A stretch of DNA of 64,000 nt from Petrimonas sp. IBARAKI (GTDB lineage: Bacteria; Bacteroidota; Bacteroidia; Bacteroidales; Dysgonomonadaceae), in contig AP018040.2 in assembly GCA_002356435.2 (NCBI GenBank), forward strand, positions 3,224,001 to 3,288,000, given 5' to 3'. Numbering within the stretch: the stretch's first letter is position 1; the number at the start of each line of letters is the position of its first letter. The notes under the pieces are model-generated. The model had not been told where the DNA came from. It made no database searches and was given only the letters and a program-made list of their open reading frames with translations. The translations under genes and the position numbers were made by a program. Below are positions 27,254-38,651 of this stretch, in pieces.

Positions 27254-29302
27254 ATGGAATGGTATAACAAGATAATGTGTGTGACATTTTCCGAACTGAC
27301 GGAGAGTGAATCCGGGCCACAGGTAATGAGCGAAAGCAATTATGACAAACTCGTTAATACTCGAAAACTCAACGTTGTCCGCCCGGGTAAGGGGCTGGAT
27401 AATTACGCACTTATTGAATACGATACCATGCCGCAGCGATTCAAGGTAAGGTTTGACGAAAAATGGGGAAACCCATATGATAATTACAAGGAAAGCATGA
27501 TGTTATCTGAAATTGAAAAAGATTCAGACGCTCGAAGTTTCTTCGCGGAATATGAAACGGAGGACGGCGTTACCATACCGGACGAGCTGCAAGAGGAGTA
27601 TGCACAAAATGCAGATGTTTTGAACCTGCTGGTTATGATGGTAGAGGATAACAAGAAAATGCGTAAAAGGATGCAAGGTAGTGCGGCGGACGCATGGTCA
27701 AGCATTTACGGCACGGTTGAACGGCTTCGAAAAAATCCGGGGCACACGCTACCGAAGAGCCACCCCCGTCTACGCGACAAAATAAACCAGTACAAAAAGG
27801 AAGGTTATGACTGTCTTGTTTCAGGTAAACTCGGAAACAGGAACACTCAAAAGATAACAGAAGAGGCGGGCATGTTTCTCGTGATGAAAAAACGTTGCCG
27901 GGTGCCAGTGATGACCGACAAGCAGATATGGGCGGAATTTAACCGGGTGGCAGATAATTACGGATGGAAAAAATTAAAGAACGAGGCTTCCGTAACGAAC
28001 TACCTTAATGCCCCGGAAAACATACAACGCTGGTATGATGCCGTATATGGCGAATTAAAAGCGTTTCAGAAGTTCGGGTACAAACATCAAACCATGTTGC
28101 CGGAGAAACGCGACTCGCTGTGGTATGGTGACGGAACGAAACTCAATCTTTATTACAAGGCTTACGAAGACGGCAAACTGGTTGTGGCAACCACGCAGGT
28201 TTATGAAGTGCTGGACGCTTACAGCGAAATGTTTCTCGGTTATCACATTTCCGACTCGGAAAACTACGAGGCGCAATACAACGCCTACCGCATGGCGGTG
28301 GAACTGGCACAAAGCCGCCCGTTCGAAATTGTTACCGACAACCAGGGCGGGCACAAGAAACTGGATTCGTCAGGATTTCTGGGCAGAATTTGCCGTTTGA
28401 AGCGTCCAACCACTCCGTATCGTGCTACTGGAAAGTCGATAGAAGCCGTTTTTGGGCGCTTCCAGGCGGAAATATTACACAAGGATTGGCGTTTCACAGG
28501 GCAAAACATCACGGCCACATCGGAAAAAAGCCGCCAAAATTTGGAGTTTTTGCAAGCGAACAAGGAGAATTTATATACCCTCGACGAACTAAAAGAAGCC
28601 TACGCCATCGCCCGCGAGGAATGGAACTCTGGCAAACACCCCGCAACCGGAATTTCACGCCGTGAAATGTACCTGAACTCCACCAACGAAAAAGCCAAAC
28701 CGGTTGACAGGCTGGACATGATTGAAATGTTCTGGATGATGACGGCAAAAGCCTCCACGTTTACCGATTGCGGCATTACCATAACCATAGACAAGAAAAA
28801 ATACACGTACGACGTGTACGCCGGGGATTTGCCTGACTTCGATTTCCGGAAAAAGAACATAGGACGGAGGTTTTTCGTGCAGTACGACCCGCTCGACCTC
28901 ACGCAGGTGCGCCTGTATGTGAAAGACGCCACCGGTACCCGGTACGTCACCGACGCGCTCCCGTACGTAAAAGTTTTCCGCGCCACTCAGGACGCCACAC
29001 AGGAAAGCAGTTCTTTCATCCGACGGGTGGCCGACAAAGAACGGGAATTGCGGGTTGAGAATCATCAAAAGAATATGGAACTGGAACACGAATGGGGAGT
29101 CGCGCCAGAACAATTCGGGTTGAACAGGCCGGAACTGAAAGGGATAGGCAAGAAGGCCCAAGCTGCAAGCATGAAACAAAGGAAAACAAATGGATTTAAA
29201 GAAGTCAAGGCCAGGAAACGGGAAACCGTGGAAGTGGGAGAATGGGAAAAAAAGATCAGCAACCTCACGTATGACGAGGTTGCCCAGTACGATAAACTAT
29301 AA
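27254..29302 (+). CDS. MuA-type DDE transposase
   Basis: 682 residues. The catalytic core has the first aspartate D293 in WYGDGTKLN, D362 in VTDNQGG and E397 in SIEAVFGRF, a DD-35-E spacing. Conserved surroundings are ATTQVYEVLDAYSEM and RPTTPYRATGK. N-terminal DNA-binding domains and a C-terminal beta-barrel/MuB-contact region fit the MuA layout and its usual size (MuA is 663 residues). It should cut and join the phage ends for integration and replication. The MuB-like gene follows 12 bp downstream. Confidence 0.92.
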   Translation: MEWYNKIMCVTFSELTESESGPQVMSESNYDKLVNTRKLNVVRPGKGLDNYALIEYDTMPQRFKVRFDEKWGNPYDNYKESMMLSEIEKDSDARSFFAEYETEDGVTIPDELQEEYAQNADVLNLLVMMVEDNKKMRKRMQGSAADAWSSIYGTVERLRKNPGHTLPKSHPRLRDKINQYKKEGYDCLVSGKLGNRNTQKITEEAGMFLVMKKRCRVPVMTDKQIWAEFNRVADNYGWKKLKNEASVTNYLNAPENIQRWYDAVYGELKAFQKFGYKHQTMLPEKRDSLWYGDGTKLNLYYKAYEDGKLVVATTQVYEVLDAYSEMFLGYHISDSENYEAQYNAYRMAVELAQSRPFEIVTDNQGGHKKLDSSGFLGRICRLKRPTTPYRATGKSIEAVFGRFQAEILHKDWRFTGQNITATSEKSRQNLEFLQANKENLYTLDELKEAYAIAREEWNSGKHPATGISRREMYLNSTNEKAKPVDRLDMIEMFWMMTAKASTFTDCGITITIDKKKYTYDVYAGDLPDFDFRKKNIGRRFFVQYDPLDLTQVRLYVKDATGTRYVTDALPYVKVFRATQDATQESSSFIRRVADKERELRVENHQKNMELEHEWGVAPEQFGLNRPELKGIGKKAQAASMKQRKTNGFKEVKARKRETVEVGEWEKKISNLTYDEVAQYDKL

Positions 29303-29313
29303 AAAATCAAACT

Positions 29314-30195
29314 ATGATTAGCGAAGAGAAGAAACACGAGATAAGCGCCATGCTACTGGCGTATTGTGACAGGTACGGGAGCCGTAACAGCGCGGCCATG
29401 AGCCTTAAAAACGTAAGTCCGTCAACCGTGTCATCAATCCTTAACGGAAAATGGGAGTACATTTCCGACGACATGTGGAAGAGCATCCGGGCCCAGGTGT
29501 CTGATGCCGGAAACCTAACCGATTGGCAAGTGGTAGAAACGCCAACTTTTAAAGACGTGTATTTCTGTTTGCAGAACGCACAGGATGAAAAAGGTGTTAC
29601 CTGGCTGACGGCACCGGCGGGAAGTGGCAAAACAACCGCGGCGGAGCTTTACCGGAGTGAACGAAAAAATGTGATATACCTCCTTTGCGATGAAGACATG
29701 AAGAAATCCATTTTTGCAATCGAACTGGCCAGGGCGGCTGGAATTCGCATTAACACGCAAAAAAGTGCCCGCGAAAAAATAATGCTGGTGATTGAGAAGA
29801 TATCCGAAATGGATTCTCCCCTGCTCATCTTCGACGAGGGCGACAAATTGTCGGATAACCTTCTGTATTATTTCATTACTATTTACAATCACTTACACAG
29901 GAAAGCGGGGATTGTGTTCCTGTCAACCTCGTACATGCAGCGGCGTATGGAACAGGGCCTGAGGTACAATAAAAAAGGGTATCAGGAACTGGAAAGCAGG
30001 ATCGGACGGAAATTTTACGAAGCCGAGCCAACTTCGGCACACGATGTTTATGCCATTTGTCGCGCTAACGGGCTGACGGATGAAAAAATAATTTCCGGAA
30101 TCGTTAAAGATGCCTCATCGTGCGGATTCGACTTGCGGCGCGTGGATAAGAAAGTAAGGGCGGAAAGAAAAAAACAGCAATTAAAAGGTAATTAA
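29314..30195 (+). CDS. MuB-type AAA ATPase (target DNA selection)
   Basis: 293 residues. An N-terminal helix-turn-helix-like region (about 1-65) is followed by Walker A PAGSGKTT at 101-108 and Walker B LLIFDEGDKLS. In Mu this ATPase coats target DNA, directs transposition away from the phage and stimulates MuA. The order transposase then ATPase is exactly that of Mu. Confidence 0.9.
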   Translation: MISEEKKHEISAMLLAYCDRYGSRNSAAMSLKNVSPSTVSSILNGKWEYISDDMWKSIRAQVSDAGNLTDWQVVETPTFKDVYFCLQNAQDEKGVTWLTAPAGSGKTTAAELYRSERKNVIYLLCDEDMKKSIFAIELARAAGIRINTQKSAREKIMLVIEKISEMDSPLLIFDEGDKLSDNLLYYFITIYNHLHRKAGIVFLSTSYMQRRMEQGLRYNKKGYQELESRIGRKFYEAEPTSAHDVYAICRANGLTDEKIISGIVKDASSCGFDLRRVDKKVRAERKKQQLKGN

Positions 30196-33842: not shown

Positions 33843-34727
33843 ATGAGCTACACACCTACAGCTAAAAGCTATTTTTCAGGAGGGGGACTAATGGACTTAG
33901 GGCTACTAAATGCCGGAATAGATATCATACAGTCGCTCGAAATAGACTTAACTTGTGTTGAGACTTTGAAAAGGAACTTTTCTCACAAGATAATACATAC
34001 GGATATTAAGGATCAAAAGGTTTTGGATCAACCTAAATCCGATATCATAGTAGGCACTTACCCTTGTAAGAGATATTCTACAATAGCGGATATACATGGA
34101 ACCCGAACAGGAGAAGAATTGTTTCTTCATTTTTTCAGACACATAGCACTTGAAAAGCCAGAAATGTATATATGCGAGAATGTGCCAGGGATGAAAAAAT
34201 TCCAGATAGTGATGGAAGCTATGACAAAGTTACCCGACTACTATGTGAATGTATTTTGCCCGGTTAATGCTTTAAACTGGCTCCCTCAAGACCGAAAACG
34301 TCTTATAATATTTGGAACAAAAAAAAGATTCTCCATAAACCCTCCTAAAAATCAAAAAAGAGTACTGCTGTCTGATATAATTGAAGAGTGTCCGGAAATG
34401 GAAATACCTGATCACGTACTTAACAGGATCCAAGGGAAATATAGAGACTATCCAATAGTATCTGACCCATACGATCCAAACAGCGTAGCCCCCACTTGTG
34501 TAGCCCATTATGCAAAGGATAGGAGCACAAGGCTTGTAAAAGATCGCTCACATCCATTGGGCGTCAGACCGTACTCAGTTAAAGAATATGCGAGACTACA
34601 AGGCGTTCCGGATTCTTTCTACTTCTCCGGCGGTGATAACGATGCTTATAGAATGATCGGTAACGGTGTGCCCGTAAATTTAGCTGAATGGATTGGCAAT
34701 GAAGCAATAAAATATTTTAACGTGTAA
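33843..34727 (+). CDS. DNA cytosine-C5 methyltransferase
   Basis: 294 residues. Motif I SYFSGGGLMDLGLLNAG binds SAM. Motif IV GTYPCKRYS carries the catalytic Pro-Cys, with Tyr-Pro in place of the more usual Pro-Pro. Motif VI is ENVPGM, motif VIII QDRKRLIIFG and motif X IGNGVPVNLAEWIG. No restriction enzyme is adjacent, so it looks like an orphan phage methylase, probably protecting phage DNA from host restriction. The target sequence is unknown. Confidence 0.88.
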   Translation: MSYTPTAKSYFSGGGLMDLGLLNAGIDIIQSLEIDLTCVETLKRNFSHKIIHTDIKDQKVLDQPKSDIIVGTYPCKRYSTIADIHGTRTGEELFLHFFRHIALEKPEMYICENVPGMKKFQIVMEAMTKLPDYYVNVFCPVNALNWLPQDRKRLIIFGTKKRFSINPPKNQKRVLLSDIIEECPEMEIPDHVLNRIQGKYRDYPIVSDPYDPNSVAPTCVAHYAKDRSTRLVKDRSHPLGVRPYSVKEYARLQGVPDSFYFSGGDNDAYRMIGNGVPVNLAEWIGNEAIKYFNV

Positions 34728-34737
34728 GTGAACAAAT

Positions 34738-35118
34738 ATGATCATAGCAGTAGATTTTGACGGAACGTTACATACTGGTCAATGGCCGAATATAGGAGCT
34801 GCGGCGCCATACGCTGCCGAAATAATGCGTAGGCTTAAAAATGATGGGCACACCTTGATTATCTGGACAAGTCGCGGGGGTGAACTGCTTATTGATGCTG
34901 TTAATTGGCTTTTGTCGCATGATATTCCATTTGACCGGGTAAACGATAACTGCCCGCTTAACACAGAAAAATACGGCTCCAACTCGCGCAAGGTTTATGC
35001 CCATTGCTACGTGGATGATAAACAGGTAGGTGGGTTGCCGACGTGGCCGGAAATTTATGAATGGGTTACGAAACTGGAACAACAATATAAGCGCTCTTCC
35101 TCGGGTACAAAATTTTGA
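34738..35118 (+). CDS. HAD-like hydrolase (BT0820-type)
   Basis: 126 residues. It begins MIIAVDFDGTLHTG, the HAD motif I DxDGT, followed by LIIWTSRGG (motif II Thr/Ser) and HCYVDDKQVGG (acidic motif). This small cap-less HAD type occurs in Bacteroides genomes and phages, probably a phosphatase of unknown substrate. It ends just before a terminator-like repeat. Confidence 0.75.
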   Translation: MIIAVDFDGTLHTGQWPNIGAAAPYAAEIMRRLKNDGHTLIIWTSRGGELLIDAVNWLLSHDIPFDRVNDNCPLNTEKYGSNSRKVYAHCYVDDKQVGGLPTWPEIYEWVTKLEQQYKRSSSGTKF

Positions 35119-35126
35119 TTTTCCTT

Positions 35127-35168
35127 AATCCACTCGGTTTGTGAAAATAGGGCGGTTTTTTATTCTAA
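35127..35168 (+). terminator. Terminator-like repeat, left copy
   Basis: CCACTC, loop, GGGCGG then TTTTTT: an imperfect stem with a T-tract after the HAD gene. About 38 nt of it (35131-35168) align with 37341-37380, which ends the gene pair on the other side. It closes the early operon. Confidence 0.6.
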
Positions 35169-35197
35169 CATATTGATACTATAAAGAATATTATATA

Positions 35198-35205
35198 TAT
35201 ATTTG
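35198..35205 (+). promoter_or_regulatory. Promoter element of the cargo gene pair
   Basis: TATATTTG in a very AT-rich stretch. ATTG lies 22 nt upstream as a weak -33. The predicted start is close to the ATG at 35217, so the second in-frame ATG at 35229 may be the true start. Confidence 0.55.
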
Positions 35206-35216
35206 CAATCGAAACT

Positions 35217-36086
35217 ATGAGACATACGATGGATGTAGAATTTGAAATTCGGGACTACTTCAGAAAAGATCAGGAAAAAATAATGATGGCATTCAGGCTT
35301 TCAGATTCCATTCGATCTCAATTGAAAGATATACGTTCTTCGGGGAATGAAGTTGAAATTGCTGTCAGGGATTTTTTTAAAACAAAATTATTCCCAAAGT
35401 ATCATGTTTCAGATGGGCATATAATAGATTCGAGAAAAAAAATTAGCCCACAGTTTGATATTATAATCTCAGAACAATCTCAAAATCCAGTATTTTACAC
35501 ACTCGAGGATAAGAGTGAGATTTTGTATTATGAGTCTATATATGCATTCGGAGAAGTAAAACGGTCTTATTATAGAGAGGATATTTTAACTAATTTCTCT
35601 AAAAATGTAGAAAAAATAAAAACAGAATTCTATAGAGAGCCTATCAATCCAAATGTTTTATTATCATCCGGAGCCAAAATTACACTTGGACAAAAAATAA
35701 CATCTTTCAAATTAAGAAATCCCATTTTTTCATTTTTGTTTATTGTTGACTCATGTGGTCTCGATATGAATAAACTAAAAGAAGACTTAAGAAATATAAA
35801 GTCAAATTCAGCACCAAACATTATCGTATTTAACGATTTAGGTATAATTGTGAATATTGATGCCGTAAAATTCCAAAATGGTAAACTTCAAATCAACTTG
35901 TATCCTGAATTTGTCGAGAATGGGGAATGGTATTTTTTAAAATGGGATCATCCGGAAGATATATTAGCATTTCAATACATGCTTATTATTCAACATCTGA
36001 ATGATTCATTGCTGGGCACTCCAAATCTCATTAAGTATGGAGCAGAAGTTTTTGATTTTTCATTACATAATTTTCAAAAAATATGA
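35217..36086 (+). CDS. DUF6602 protein, PD-(D/E)XK nuclease-like
   Basis: 289 residues. The N-terminal half follows the DUF6602 pattern: SSGNEVEIAVRDFFKTKLFP, VSDGHIIDSRKKISPQFDII, then YAFGEVKRSYYR. E46, D81 and E113-x-K115 are placed like the catalytic residues of a PD-(D/E)XK nuclease. Base composition is much more AT-rich than the flanking phage genes. It overlaps the next gene by 4 bp. Function is unknown; a defence nuclease is a reasonable guess from fold and setting, not demonstrated. M5 at 35229 could be the start. Confidence 0.6.
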   Translation: MRHTMDVEFEIRDYFRKDQEKIMMAFRLSDSIRSQLKDIRSSGNEVEIAVRDFFKTKLFPKYHVSDGHIIDSRKKISPQFDIIISEQSQNPVFYTLEDKSEILYYESIYAFGEVKRSYYREDILTNFSKNVEKIKTEFYREPINPNVLLSSGAKITLGQKITSFKLRNPIFSFLFIVDSCGLDMNKLKEDLRNIKSNSAPNIIVFNDLGIIVNIDAVKFQNGKLQINLYPEFVENGEWYFLKWDHPEDILAFQYMLIIQHLNDSLLGTPNLIKYGAEVFDFSLHNFQKI

Positions 36087-37129
36087 ATCTATCTATTGAT
36101 ACCATTAATCGTGTCATTGCTCACACAATTAATAAGAAAACACAAGAGTTTGAAGCATATGCAACAACAACAAATGAATTGTTACGGAATTCATTTGAAG
36201 ATCAAGTAGTATTGAAGAGCCGAATTGTTGATGCGATTAATAATTCAAGAAAAACATTCAAATTAGAATTTGAGGATACCTCAGAGGGTAGTGTAAAAAG
36301 AATGCTTGATGATTTTAATAATTGGGACGATTCCAATTTTATAAATAAATCTATTGTACTTGCTGAGAGGTTAGCAGAATCTCACTTTAGAACAAACATA
36401 CCAAGCGGTTATTGTATAATTGGAAGCGGGAAAGATAATCTACATAGAGATATATTTTTCATAATAAAAGCCGAACCACAGGAGGTTTTTAATATTCAAG
36501 AAAACACATTGCATTTAATTAAAAATGTTTTTCTTTCTCCAGCGAAAGATTTTTACAAAATAGGTTTGTTTATTAGAGAACGGGAGCGATTTATCCCCTA
36601 TATGTATGATGATTTATTCACATCTCAAAAAAGAGATTTAACAGAGTATTTTTACAGTAAATTTTTGGGATTAACTACTGATAGAAATGACGAAATAAAA
36701 ACAAAAAATTTTTATAATGATACAAAGAAATTTGTTGAAAGTAATATTTCTGAAGCAAAAGATCAGGATGGAATGCTAAGAGCCCTAAACGTATACATGA
36801 GAGAAGAAGATGGCAGTATTTCTGCAACAGATTTCAGCGAACGTTATTTCACAAATTTTCCAGCTGAGATTAAAAGGAAATTTGATAGAATTGTCGAAAG
36901 AGACTATCCATTGACATTTTCTAAAAATATGCGACTTTTAAACCAAAATAGTTTAAATCTTCAAAGAGTTAATATAAATAGCAAACTAACTATCTTAAGC
37001 AAAGGTTATGAGATAGATAACATATTCGAGAATCCAACTGTTGAGCAAATTGAGCCATTTTTAAACACTGGGATGAATGGAGTAGTTATTTGTCTTAAGA
37101 ACGCTGAAATTATTGGTGACAATGATTAA
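36083..37129 (+). CDS. Possible nucleoid-associated (NdpA/YejK-like) protein
   Basis: 348 residues, AT-rich, coupled to the DUF6602 gene by an ATGA overlap. Parts recall the 37-kDa nucleoid-associated protein family: a start with SIDTINRVIAHTINK, a central IGLFIRERERFIPYMYDD and YFYSKFLGLTTD, and a C-terminal LTILSKGYEI segment. The resemblance is by eye and distant. KwaB/DUF4868-type proteins are an alternative. It probably works with the upstream nuclease-like protein as a two-component unit. Confidence 0.4.
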   Translation: MNLSIDTINRVIAHTINKKTQEFEAYATTTNELLRNSFEDQVVLKSRIVDAINNSRKTFKLEFEDTSEGSVKRMLDDFNNWDDSNFINKSIVLAERLAESHFRTNIPSGYCIIGSGKDNLHRDIFFIIKAEPQEVFNIQENTLHLIKNVFLSPAKDFYKIGLFIRERERFIPYMYDDLFTSQKRDLTEYFYSKFLGLTTDRNDEIKTKNFYNDTKKFVESNISEAKDQDGMLRALNVYMREEDGSISATDFSERYFTNFPAEIKRKFDRIVERDYPLTFSKNMRLLNQNSLNLQRVNINSKLTILSKGYEIDNIFENPTVEQIEPFLNTGMNGVVICLKNAEIIGDND

Positions 37130-37194
37130 TTAATTATTAATTATCGTGCTGCCGATTGATCTTCAAACTCCGTCCTGAAATCAATGGTGTAAAT

Positions 37195-37225
37195 AAACAG
37201 CCCGTTGCGGCTGTTTTCTTTTTCC
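37195..37225 (+). terminator. Intrinsic terminator after the cargo pair
   Basis: AAACAGCC (37195-37202), loop CGTTGC, GGCTGTTT (37209-37216), followed by TCTTTTTCC. Confidence 0.75.
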
Positions 37226-37338
37226 TGCCGCGTTCTCGAGAGCGTGTCGAAGTGCGGAGTACCAAAACCTTGCAAGGCGGATTGAAATCGCAGTGCGAGT
37301 TTAAGTTTTGTTTTTTCATATTATAATTTAGTGATTTA

Positions 37339-37380
37339 GCCGCTCCGGTTTTTGAAAATTGGGGCGGTTTTTGTTCCTAA
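37339..37380 (+). terminator. Terminator-like repeat, right copy
   Basis: GCCGCTCC (37339-37346) pairs with GGGGCGGT (37361-37368), then TTTTTG. Positions 37341-37380 align with 35131-35168, with small indels. The two copies bracket the DUF6602 gene pair. Confidence 0.7.
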
Positions 37381-37417: not shown

Positions 37418-37449
37418 TTTGTTTTTAGAATTGTTTGTTTGTAACTTTG
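37418..37449 (+). promoter_or_regulatory. Promoter of the Clp-fold protease gene
   Basis: TTTG (37418-37421), 20 nt, TAACTTTG (37442-37449): a consensus Bacteroidota promoter. It places transcription downstream of an in-frame upstream start (37419), so translation starts at the ATG 37482. Confidence 0.8.
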
Positions 37450-37481: not shown

Positions 37482-38651
37482 ATGGGGTACTTTTCAGAAT
37501 ATATAGATCGATTTGCGAATTCTACGTTTGAAGAAATAACAATAGAACGGAAAAAACAACTCAAGAATATCTCTGAAATTAGAAACCGAGAAATTTTAGT
37601 GTACGCAAGTGACCAAACTAAAAATGCACGGGTAGAAATATGGCCACCAGACTTATTGGTTTTTAAAGATCAGCTATCATACGTCAAATCCCGTGAAATT
37701 GATATTTTATTGGAAACCCCTGGGGGTATTGCGGAAACCGTGGAAGACATGGTGAACTTGGTTAGGGGCAAACACGATAAGGTTGGGATAATTATACCGG
37801 GTTGTGCCAAAAGCGCTGGGACCATTTTTGCCATGGCGGGAGATGAGATACTTATGAGTGAGTCATCTACACTTGGCCCGATTGACGCCCAAATAATGAT
37901 GCCAAACGGAAAGCGGTTTTCTGCTGATGCTTTCCTTGATGGCCTCGAAAAAATAAAAACCCAAGTTTTAAGAGATGGACTAAATCCGGCTTATATTCCC
38001 ATACTCCAAAATATTTCACCCGGGGAAATTCAGCACTTTGAAAATGCCCAAAACTTTTCGAGAACATTAGTTAGACAGTGGTTAAAAACATATAAGTTCA
38101 AATATTGGGAAACTCATAAAAGTACGGGGCTGCCTGTTACGGAGGAGGAGAAAGAGAGTCGCGCTGACGAAATTGCCAGTAATTTATGTAGGCATTCTGA
38201 TTGGCTAACGCACGGGAGGTCCATAAGAATAAATGACCTTGAGGCAATGCGCCTAAAGATAAGTAATTATACCGAACACCCCGAATTGGAGCAAGCGATA
38301 GAAAGATATTATAACTTATTGAGACTTACATTCGAAAAAACGGGCATTTATAAAATTTTTGAAACTACTGACTCACAAATATATCAATCAATTGCCCAGG
38401 TTATACCAGCGGCTCCATCTATCCCCTCAAATGGTACACCGGAACACGCCATAACGGATATCACGTGCCCGCAGTGCCAGTCTCATTATAAGGTACAGTT
38501 TAACTTGAAGGAGGGTGTACGGTTACAAGAGGGCTGTGAACCATATCCAAAAAATGGAGTCTTTTTATGCAAAACGTGTGCGGCTCATATAGATATTTCT
38601 TCTGTTCGTCTTCAATTTGAAGCGCAAACTGGTCTAAAGGTAATATTATAA
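37482..38651 (+). CDS. SDH-family Clp-fold serine protease with C-terminal zinc ribbon
   Basis: 389 residues from the ATG at 37482. The Clp/SppA-like core has LLETPGG (78-82 region), the likely nucleophile Ser111 in CAKSAGTIFAMAGDEI and STLGPIDAQIM, the pattern of the serine dehydrogenase proteinase family. A C-terminal zinc ribbon with CPQC and CKTC (about residues 325-370) is added. It has its own consensus promoter and stands between terminators, so it is probably expressed in the lysogen. Possible roles are host defence, signalling or exclusion; none is shown. Confidence 0.75.
   Translation: MGYFSEYIDRFANSTFEEITIERKKQLKNISEIRNREILVYASDQTKNARVEIWPPDLLVFKDQLSYVKSREIDILLETPGGIAETVEDMVNLVRGKHDKVGIIIPGCAKSAGTIFAMAGDEILMSESSTLGPIDAQIMMPNGKRFSADAFLDGLEKIKTQVLRDGLNPAYIPILQNISPGEIQHFENAQNFSRTLVRQWLKTYKFKYWETHKSTGLPVTEEEKESRADEIASNLCRHSDWLTHGRSIRINDLEAMRLKISNYTEHPELEQAIERYYNLLRLTFEKTGIYKIFETTDSQIYQSIAQVIPAAPSIPSNGTPEHAITDITCPQCQSHYKVQFNLKEGVRLQEGCEPYPKNGVFLCKTCAAHIDISSVRLQFEAQTGLKVIL

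Follow-up and report, generated by a model that had tools for sequence, protein, structure and literature searches.

A predicted NucC-like nuclease and a YejK-fold protein are encoded as a conserved gene pair on a Mu-like prophage of Petrimonas sp. IBARAKI

A Mu-like prophage in the genome of Petrimonas sp. IBARAKI carries two coupled genes, here called A and B, which encode a predicted nuclease of the NucC superfamily and a protein of predicted YejK/NA37 fold. The nuclease-NA37 pair is real and conserved, it is undescribed as far as our searches show, and it belongs to types already known, those of the NucC-type effector and the NA37 module. Among the papers listed by searches of an open library, to which most subscription papers do not belong, none describes a nuclease-NA37 pair or an NA37-RelA/SpoT pair, and DUF6602, the Pfam family of gene A, is mentioned in no paper there. 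A defence role of the pair is our best guess. With middling confidence we regard A and B as an abortive-infection or toxin-antitoxin-like module travelling as cargo of the prophage, in which the NA37 protein would be the regulator and the nuclease the effector. More tentatively, YejK-fold proteins might be the constant sensor of an undescribed mobile two-gene immune family with swappable effectors, here a NucC-type DNase that would be switched by a protein partner and not by a cyclic nucleotide.

The window, i.e. the whole stretch of 64,000 nt analysed here, covers positions 3224001-3288000 of a 3.69-Mb single-contig genome. The prophage lies in its middle; its transposase gene is located at 27254 and its MuB-like gene at 29314, the product of the latter being 50% identical to the MuB-like protein of Bacteroides phages annotated as transposing. 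Genes A and B sit among early-region genes in a variable slot, flanked by a HAD-like gene (34738-35118; weak Pfam match) and a gene for an SDH-type ClpP-fold protease (37482-38651). As claimed by a sequence-only reading of this DNA, the stop of A and the start of B overlap by 4 bp, and the base composition is unlike that of the phage core (GC 0.302 for A and 0.300 for B vs 0.444 for the prophage, 27254-60719). Six same-family loci in which the HAD-like gene has a relative contain no ORF that matches either A or B. The same is true of Bacteroides phage jmh72_hp over its first 19.2 kb, where the HAD-like gene is missing too. Gene B was not found in the 60 other genomes of the 61 searched from the same family, one of them of the same species. 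The pair is accessory cargo of the prophage.

The location among early-region genes would also suit a pair that serves the phage in its lytic cycle, with the host chromosome or competing DNA as the target of nuclease and nucleoid protein. We consider this unlikely, given the differing base composition, the bordering repeats described below and a slot that is empty of the pair in the six related loci. Moreover, of the five pair loci four did not turn up as phage, and a profile of the pair-type gene A gave no match in viral contigs.

The protease gene next to B has its best match in phrog_11747 (2.2e-56; of unknown function), a possible zinc ribbon (weak) and a possible -7 box of its own (37442-37449). 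A C5 cytosine methylase gene (33843-34727; Pfam 7.6e-40) also belongs to this variable stretch of the prophage and precedes the pair by two genes. A restriction-modification unit including this methylase was considered and rejected, as no methylase was recognised in those flanking genes of other pair loci that were scanned.

The features of the locus are summarised in Table 1.

Table 1. Features of the gene A/gene B locus (positions within the window).
Feature	Position	Strand	Basis
Upstream near-copy of the terminator-containing bordering repeat	35135..35168	+	Aligned to 37346-37380
Possible Bacteroidetes-type -7 box of the pair, TATATTTG	35198..35205	+	Pattern match to the consensus; motif common by chance
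Gene A: DUF6602, predicted NucC-superfamily nuclease, 289 aa (E47, D81, E113, K115)	35217..36086	+	Pfam, PADLOC, match of profile to NucC structures, kept catalytic residues
Gene B: protein of predicted NA37/YejK fold, 348 aa	36083..37129	+	Pfam NA37, AF2 model, Foldseek, VIA
Terminator-like hairpin 3' of gene B	37195..37216	+	Terminator scan
Second terminator-like hairpin and downstream repeat copy (37346-37380)	37338..37380	+	Terminator scan (hairpin 37338-37369), alignment

The pair had been credited with its own promoter and terminators. Two terminator-like hairpins were called downstream of B; four terminator-like hairpins were called in the region vs a mean of 1.5 in shuffles, and none upstream of A. 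The candidate -7 box, 11 bases 5' of the ATG of gene A, fits TAnnTTTG, which we take to be the Bacteroidetes consensus. It is weak evidence for a promoter because matches to the motif are frequent throughout the window (79 occurrences vs a mean of 58.5 in 100 shuffles). The two copies of the bordering repeat align with a score of 37, the best of 500 base shuffles reaching 27, and the core pattern of the repeat occurs at these two places only within the window when up to 3 mismatches are allowed.

Gene A matches Pfam DUF6602 at 3e-18. Compared alone to the PADLOC models it hits PD_DExK (2.3e-20) and NucC (7.6e-8), and a profile of four pair-type proteins leads to NucC structures at 2e-10, the match spanning profile positions 32-138. 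When 17 DUF6602 proteins make up the profile, E-values against crystal structures of NucC fall as low as 1.9e-71, a value driven by members closely related to NucC. D81, E113 and K115 align with D73, E104 and K106 of NucC (numbering counted on the alignment), and together with E47 they are kept in all five pair members. The sequence-only reading had named these three residues as nuclease-like and added E46, whereas the invariant acidic residue of the N-terminal part is E47. Among 43 DUF6602 rows (duplicate window copy left out) the D and the K are present in all and the E in 40. An AlphaFold2 model of gene A calculated from four pair-type sequences has a mean pLDDT of 35.9, so the fold is assigned from sequence profiles only. 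Judged by these, gene A is a predicted nuclease of the NucC superfamily with a PD-(D/E)XK-type core and intact catalytic residues, and the PD-(D/E)XK likeness proposed earlier is thereby placed within a superfamily.

NucC is well known as a second-messenger effector. It is a dsDNA-degrading defence effector, present on a prophage as well (PMC8682760). NucC of CBASS and type III CRISPR (PDB 6uxf, 7zgv, 6q1h, 6p7o) and gene A share the profile of the nuclease core with the catalytic equivalents; in contrast, the C-terminal half is left unmatched by the pair-type profile. In the DUF6602 tree, computed without L166, the pair type forms its own clade (100/100) apart from a NucC-like group (12 rows; own branch 65/92), where the counts leave out the window copy L033 and the near-copies L129, L130, L132 and L135. 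Typical NucC-like genes of the family (L170, L171, L173) adjoin CBASS E1-E2/JAB-type genes, whereas the partner of gene A is an NA37 gene.

Gene A as an off-shoot of the CBASS or type III CRISPR effectors might still respond to a signalling nucleotide that the cell produces elsewhere, with B as an accessory. The superfamily membership argues for this, as does the pairing of sister NA37 proteins with a RelA/SpoT-type synthetase. The pocket residues speak to both sides. We take R53, Y81 and T226 to be the contacts of NucC to cA3; the corresponding residues are K, Q and L in the window, K, K and V in L084, and K, R and V in L085 and L086, so that the pocket residues are missing in four of five pair members, while L166 has R, Y and I and retains two of the three. 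The T is found in none, at a position that is uncertain since the C-terminal alignment is unsure. Hence the loss does not extend to every pair-type member, and some of the family may still be under nucleotide control. The immediate neighbours of A and B are by Pfam the HAD-like gene and the SDH-type protease gene, not nucleotide cyclases or a CD-NTase as in CBASS. CD-NTase is also absent among the matches listed for the prophage (25 of 68 PADLOC families; 29 proteins scanned), and a RelA/SpoT gene was not found in the flanks fetched for the pair loci, the next gene in the window being the protease gene. In view of this we judge a nucleotide-controlled gene A quite unlikely. Less surely than the module itself, we propose that control by gene B may have replaced cyclic-nucleotide control.

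Gene B matches Pfam NA37 at 3.8e-10 (40.1 bits; cut-off 24.6). Its AlphaFold2 model, based on 41 sequences, has a pLDDT of 86.0 and finds E. coli YejK (9be2) by Foldseek at 1.8e-8 and 14% identity, far above all other matches. VIA aligns 292 residues to the same structure (Z 16.3, rmsd 11.1). Of the structure prediction suggested for both proteins, the part on gene B stands, vs the low pLDDT of the gene A model. The whole predicted fold is that of YejK/NdpA, from which gene B differs in its low identity and in its prophage location next to a coupled nuclease gene. YejK and StaR, both NA37 proteins, are nucleoid-associated and affect topoisomerases (PMC10053502). We conclude that gene B is a protein of predicted YejK/NA37 fold, which like YejK and StaR may bind DNA.

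The sequence-only reading had compared gene B to NdpA/YejK or else to KwaB/DUF4868. For the latter the likeness is weak. The KwaB dimer of Kiwa (9nyu) ranks fourth against the model with Z 5.3, unrelated chains standing just above and below, and the resemblance is partial (model residues 1-198, 147 aligned, rmsd 4.8). Pfam and PADLOC profiles give no DUF4868 or KwaB match for gene B, and its neighbours by Pfam are DUF6602 and the SDH-type protease, not a KwaA-like gene. Membership in Kiwa was rejected on account of the weak KwaB match.

DUF6602 and NA37 as families rarely pair. In 395 Bacteroidota genomes DUF6602 occurs at 44 places in 42 genomes and NA37 at 63 places in 61 genomes; the pair of the window is the only case of neighbours among them (coordinates compared by eye). 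Using profiles, no NA37 gene was seen near any other DUF6602 locus (0/29 in Bacteroidota, 0/1 on a plasmid, 0/8 viral) in the DNA scanned, mostly at least 1.5 kb per side and less at contig ends. Direct coupling to NA37 was found in none of 46 other DUF6602 loci examined. No close relatives were found for A or B singly in viral contigs, for B in genome contigs, or for A or B in phage records, and plasmid records gave distant relatives only.

The pair type behaves differently. A scan of a species-genome collection with the NA37 alignment returned 41 loci. Those nearest to gene B, with 47, 37 and 37% identity over the best segment, belong to Reichenbachiella versicolor (L084) and two Flavobacterium MAGs (L085, L086), and all three have a pair-type DUF6602 gene directly upstream of NA37. 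An independent test, blind to gene B, used the DUF6602 profile alone at a cut-off of 1e-10 in 249 genomes from the genus group to which one Flavobacterium locus belongs and in 241 from the order group of the Reichenbachiella locus. Beyond the three known loci it yielded one strong match, L166 (2.5e-51), with NA37 directly downstream in a 4-bp overlap; eight weak DUF6602 places (9e-11 to 1.6e-12) had no NA37 within ~1.5 kb. Strong pair-type DUF6602 genes are thus followed directly by NA37 in 5/5 cases (window, L084-L086, L166), with overlaps of 4, 4, 11, 0 and 4 bp. For four of the loci, L166 not being in the trees, genes A and B give the same topology, ((window, Reichenbachiella),(Flavobacterium, Flavobacterium)). 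As far as can be told from these comparisons, the nuclease-NA37 pair is a conserved unit that is inherited together. Rare adjacency elsewhere, named beforehand as an outcome speaking against the pair, is thus the case for the two families at large and not for the pair type.

Genes A and B could in principle be unrelated cargo that became neighbours by chance and are possibly decaying, in keeping with their low GC and with their absence from all other of the 61 same-family genomes. Yet both frames are open, the catalytic residues are kept at 26-45% identity, and the coupling in all five loci and the shared topology already contradict this by co-inheritance. We regard such unrelated cargo as highly improbable, and rejected chance neighbourhood on the independent test that found L166.

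Absent from the sequence-only reading is the usual partner of the NA37 branch to which gene B belongs, a RelA/SpoT-domain gene. In viral contigs with NA37 relatives it lies directly downstream in 13/13 cases, and in 12 of these the ORFs overlap when taken from their first start codon; L051 and L052, which encode identical NA37 proteins, are both counted here, and L127, which repeats the contig of L042, is not. For the 41 genome loci the partner of NA37 is RelA/SpoT in 28, DUF6602 in 3 and neither in 10. The order NA37 -> RelA/SpoT also occurs on Ochrobactrum and Klebsiella plasmids and in a Neisseria record that has an ORF for a Mu-like transposase close by. In this record (L040:6038-7047) the RelA/SpoT-domain gene is split in two ORFs and probably broken. 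Two partners that were scanned match Pfam RelA_SpoT (1e-17, 6.8e-14); their matches to PDC-S33, a model for a candidate defence system, are weak (2.4e-10, 2.1e-9). Across 45 RelA/SpoT partners about 40 positions are kept in at least 42, including an R-x-K-x3-S-x3-K stretch, D77, G80, R82, Y125, S127, H129, E152, Q154 and R156.

The NA37-RelA/SpoT unit is widespread, with cases in viral contigs (L041-L053) and genomes (part of L087-L124), and its carriers, which include phages, plasmids and genomes, span several phyla. Some of these units have a third gene directly upstream, for example a DUF4231/2TM-like gene (L050:2895-3356; weak match) or an Mrr-type nuclease gene with zinc ribbon (L045:250-1311). 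The NA37-RelA/SpoT pairs belong to the same NA37 branch as gene B and are coupled equally tightly. They carry their partner downstream, whereas in the nuclease-NA37 pair a DUF6602 nuclease precedes NA37 and the flanks show no RelA/SpoT gene.

The NA37 tree, built from 87 proteins, groups those paired with DUF6602 into a single clade (100/100) within a set of 26 rows (100/98); L057 (the window's own copy), the short L102 and the later-found L166 are left out of the counts. This set comprises 13 solitary, 9 RelA/SpoT-paired and 4 DUF6602-paired proteins and lies inside the RelA/SpoT-paired part of the tree. The nesting of the pair type among RelA/SpoT-paired proteins implies a swap of partners. 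Its direction is deduced, as the root was set at the midpoint. The simplest history would be that an NA37-RelA/SpoT lineage lost the synthetase and gained a NucC-like nuclease upstream, with solitary NA37 genes originating in this part of the tree as well.

A constant component combined with varied, potentially damaging enzymes is a pattern of abortive-infection and toxin-antitoxin systems. Since NA37 proteins are nucleoid-associated and affect topoisomerases, we propose that gene B monitors the state of the DNA and controls A. Gene B would be the constant, DNA-facing regulator that keeps its partner inactive. On sensing an infection-induced change in the nucleoid or the DNA it would release or activate the partner. 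Effectors would be open to exchange: most lineages would use a RelA/SpoT-type synthetase, the present one a NucC-like DNase. Active gene A would degrade dsDNA such that the infection is stopped and the cell sacrificed. Interaction of A and B, gating by B, the trigger and the role in defence are all inferred.

Two tightly coupled genes on a mobile element, one of them for a probable DNase, would likewise be expected of a toxin-antitoxin addiction module that does nothing but stabilise the prophage, B neutralising the nuclease and loss of the prophage setting it free. The case of A. sulfurivorans RW2 points the same way: a mobile element of this strain is reported to carry an ndpA gene not far from a gene of an addiction module (PMC10561277). 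This is our locus L106, and a RelA/SpoT gene follows its NA37 gene. Against mere addiction, no recognised mobile-element genes are present in the flanks read of three other pair loci, and gene B is large and from a DNA-associated family, which would be unusual for a simple antitoxin. We therefore consider pure addiction rather improbable and keep to a module in which B gates A upon infection. An NdpA/YejK gene was also reported in two temperate Pseudomonas phages, its authors thinking it acquired (PMC10305613).

If the proposal is true, NA37, known only as nucleoid-associated, would gain an immune branch. A NucC relative that works with a nucleoid-type protein partner would show rewiring of immune effectors. 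From the partner swap one would further predict that, in the many NA37-RelA/SpoT pairs on phages, plasmids and genomes, NA37 detects infection and keeps a toxic enzyme under its control.

The genomic surroundings give a mixed picture. It had been suggested to look for homologues of both genes in other prophages or defence islands. They do co-occur, coupled in all five pair-type loci, but the pairs of L084-L086 lie amid mostly unrecognised genes in no clear defence island or prophage. The flanks of RelA/SpoT-type loci hold some defence genes and many ordinary ones and offer no clean contrast with the control. At 1e-10, PADLOC families number 45 in 120 flanking ORFs (22/28 RelA/SpoT-type loci) vs 6 in 63 ORFs (9/10 solitary loci); these are tallies and not counts per locus, one protein may match many models, and the ORF lists include spurious ORFs. 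In favour of the proposed module, the L166 pair adjoins a ShosA-like gene just upstream (L166:396-1397; PADLOC 1.5e-44). At the 3' side of the Reichenbachiella pair a DUF4145 protein is encoded (L084:6193-6801; 4e-16), which weakly resembles PD-T7-4 (2.6e-6).
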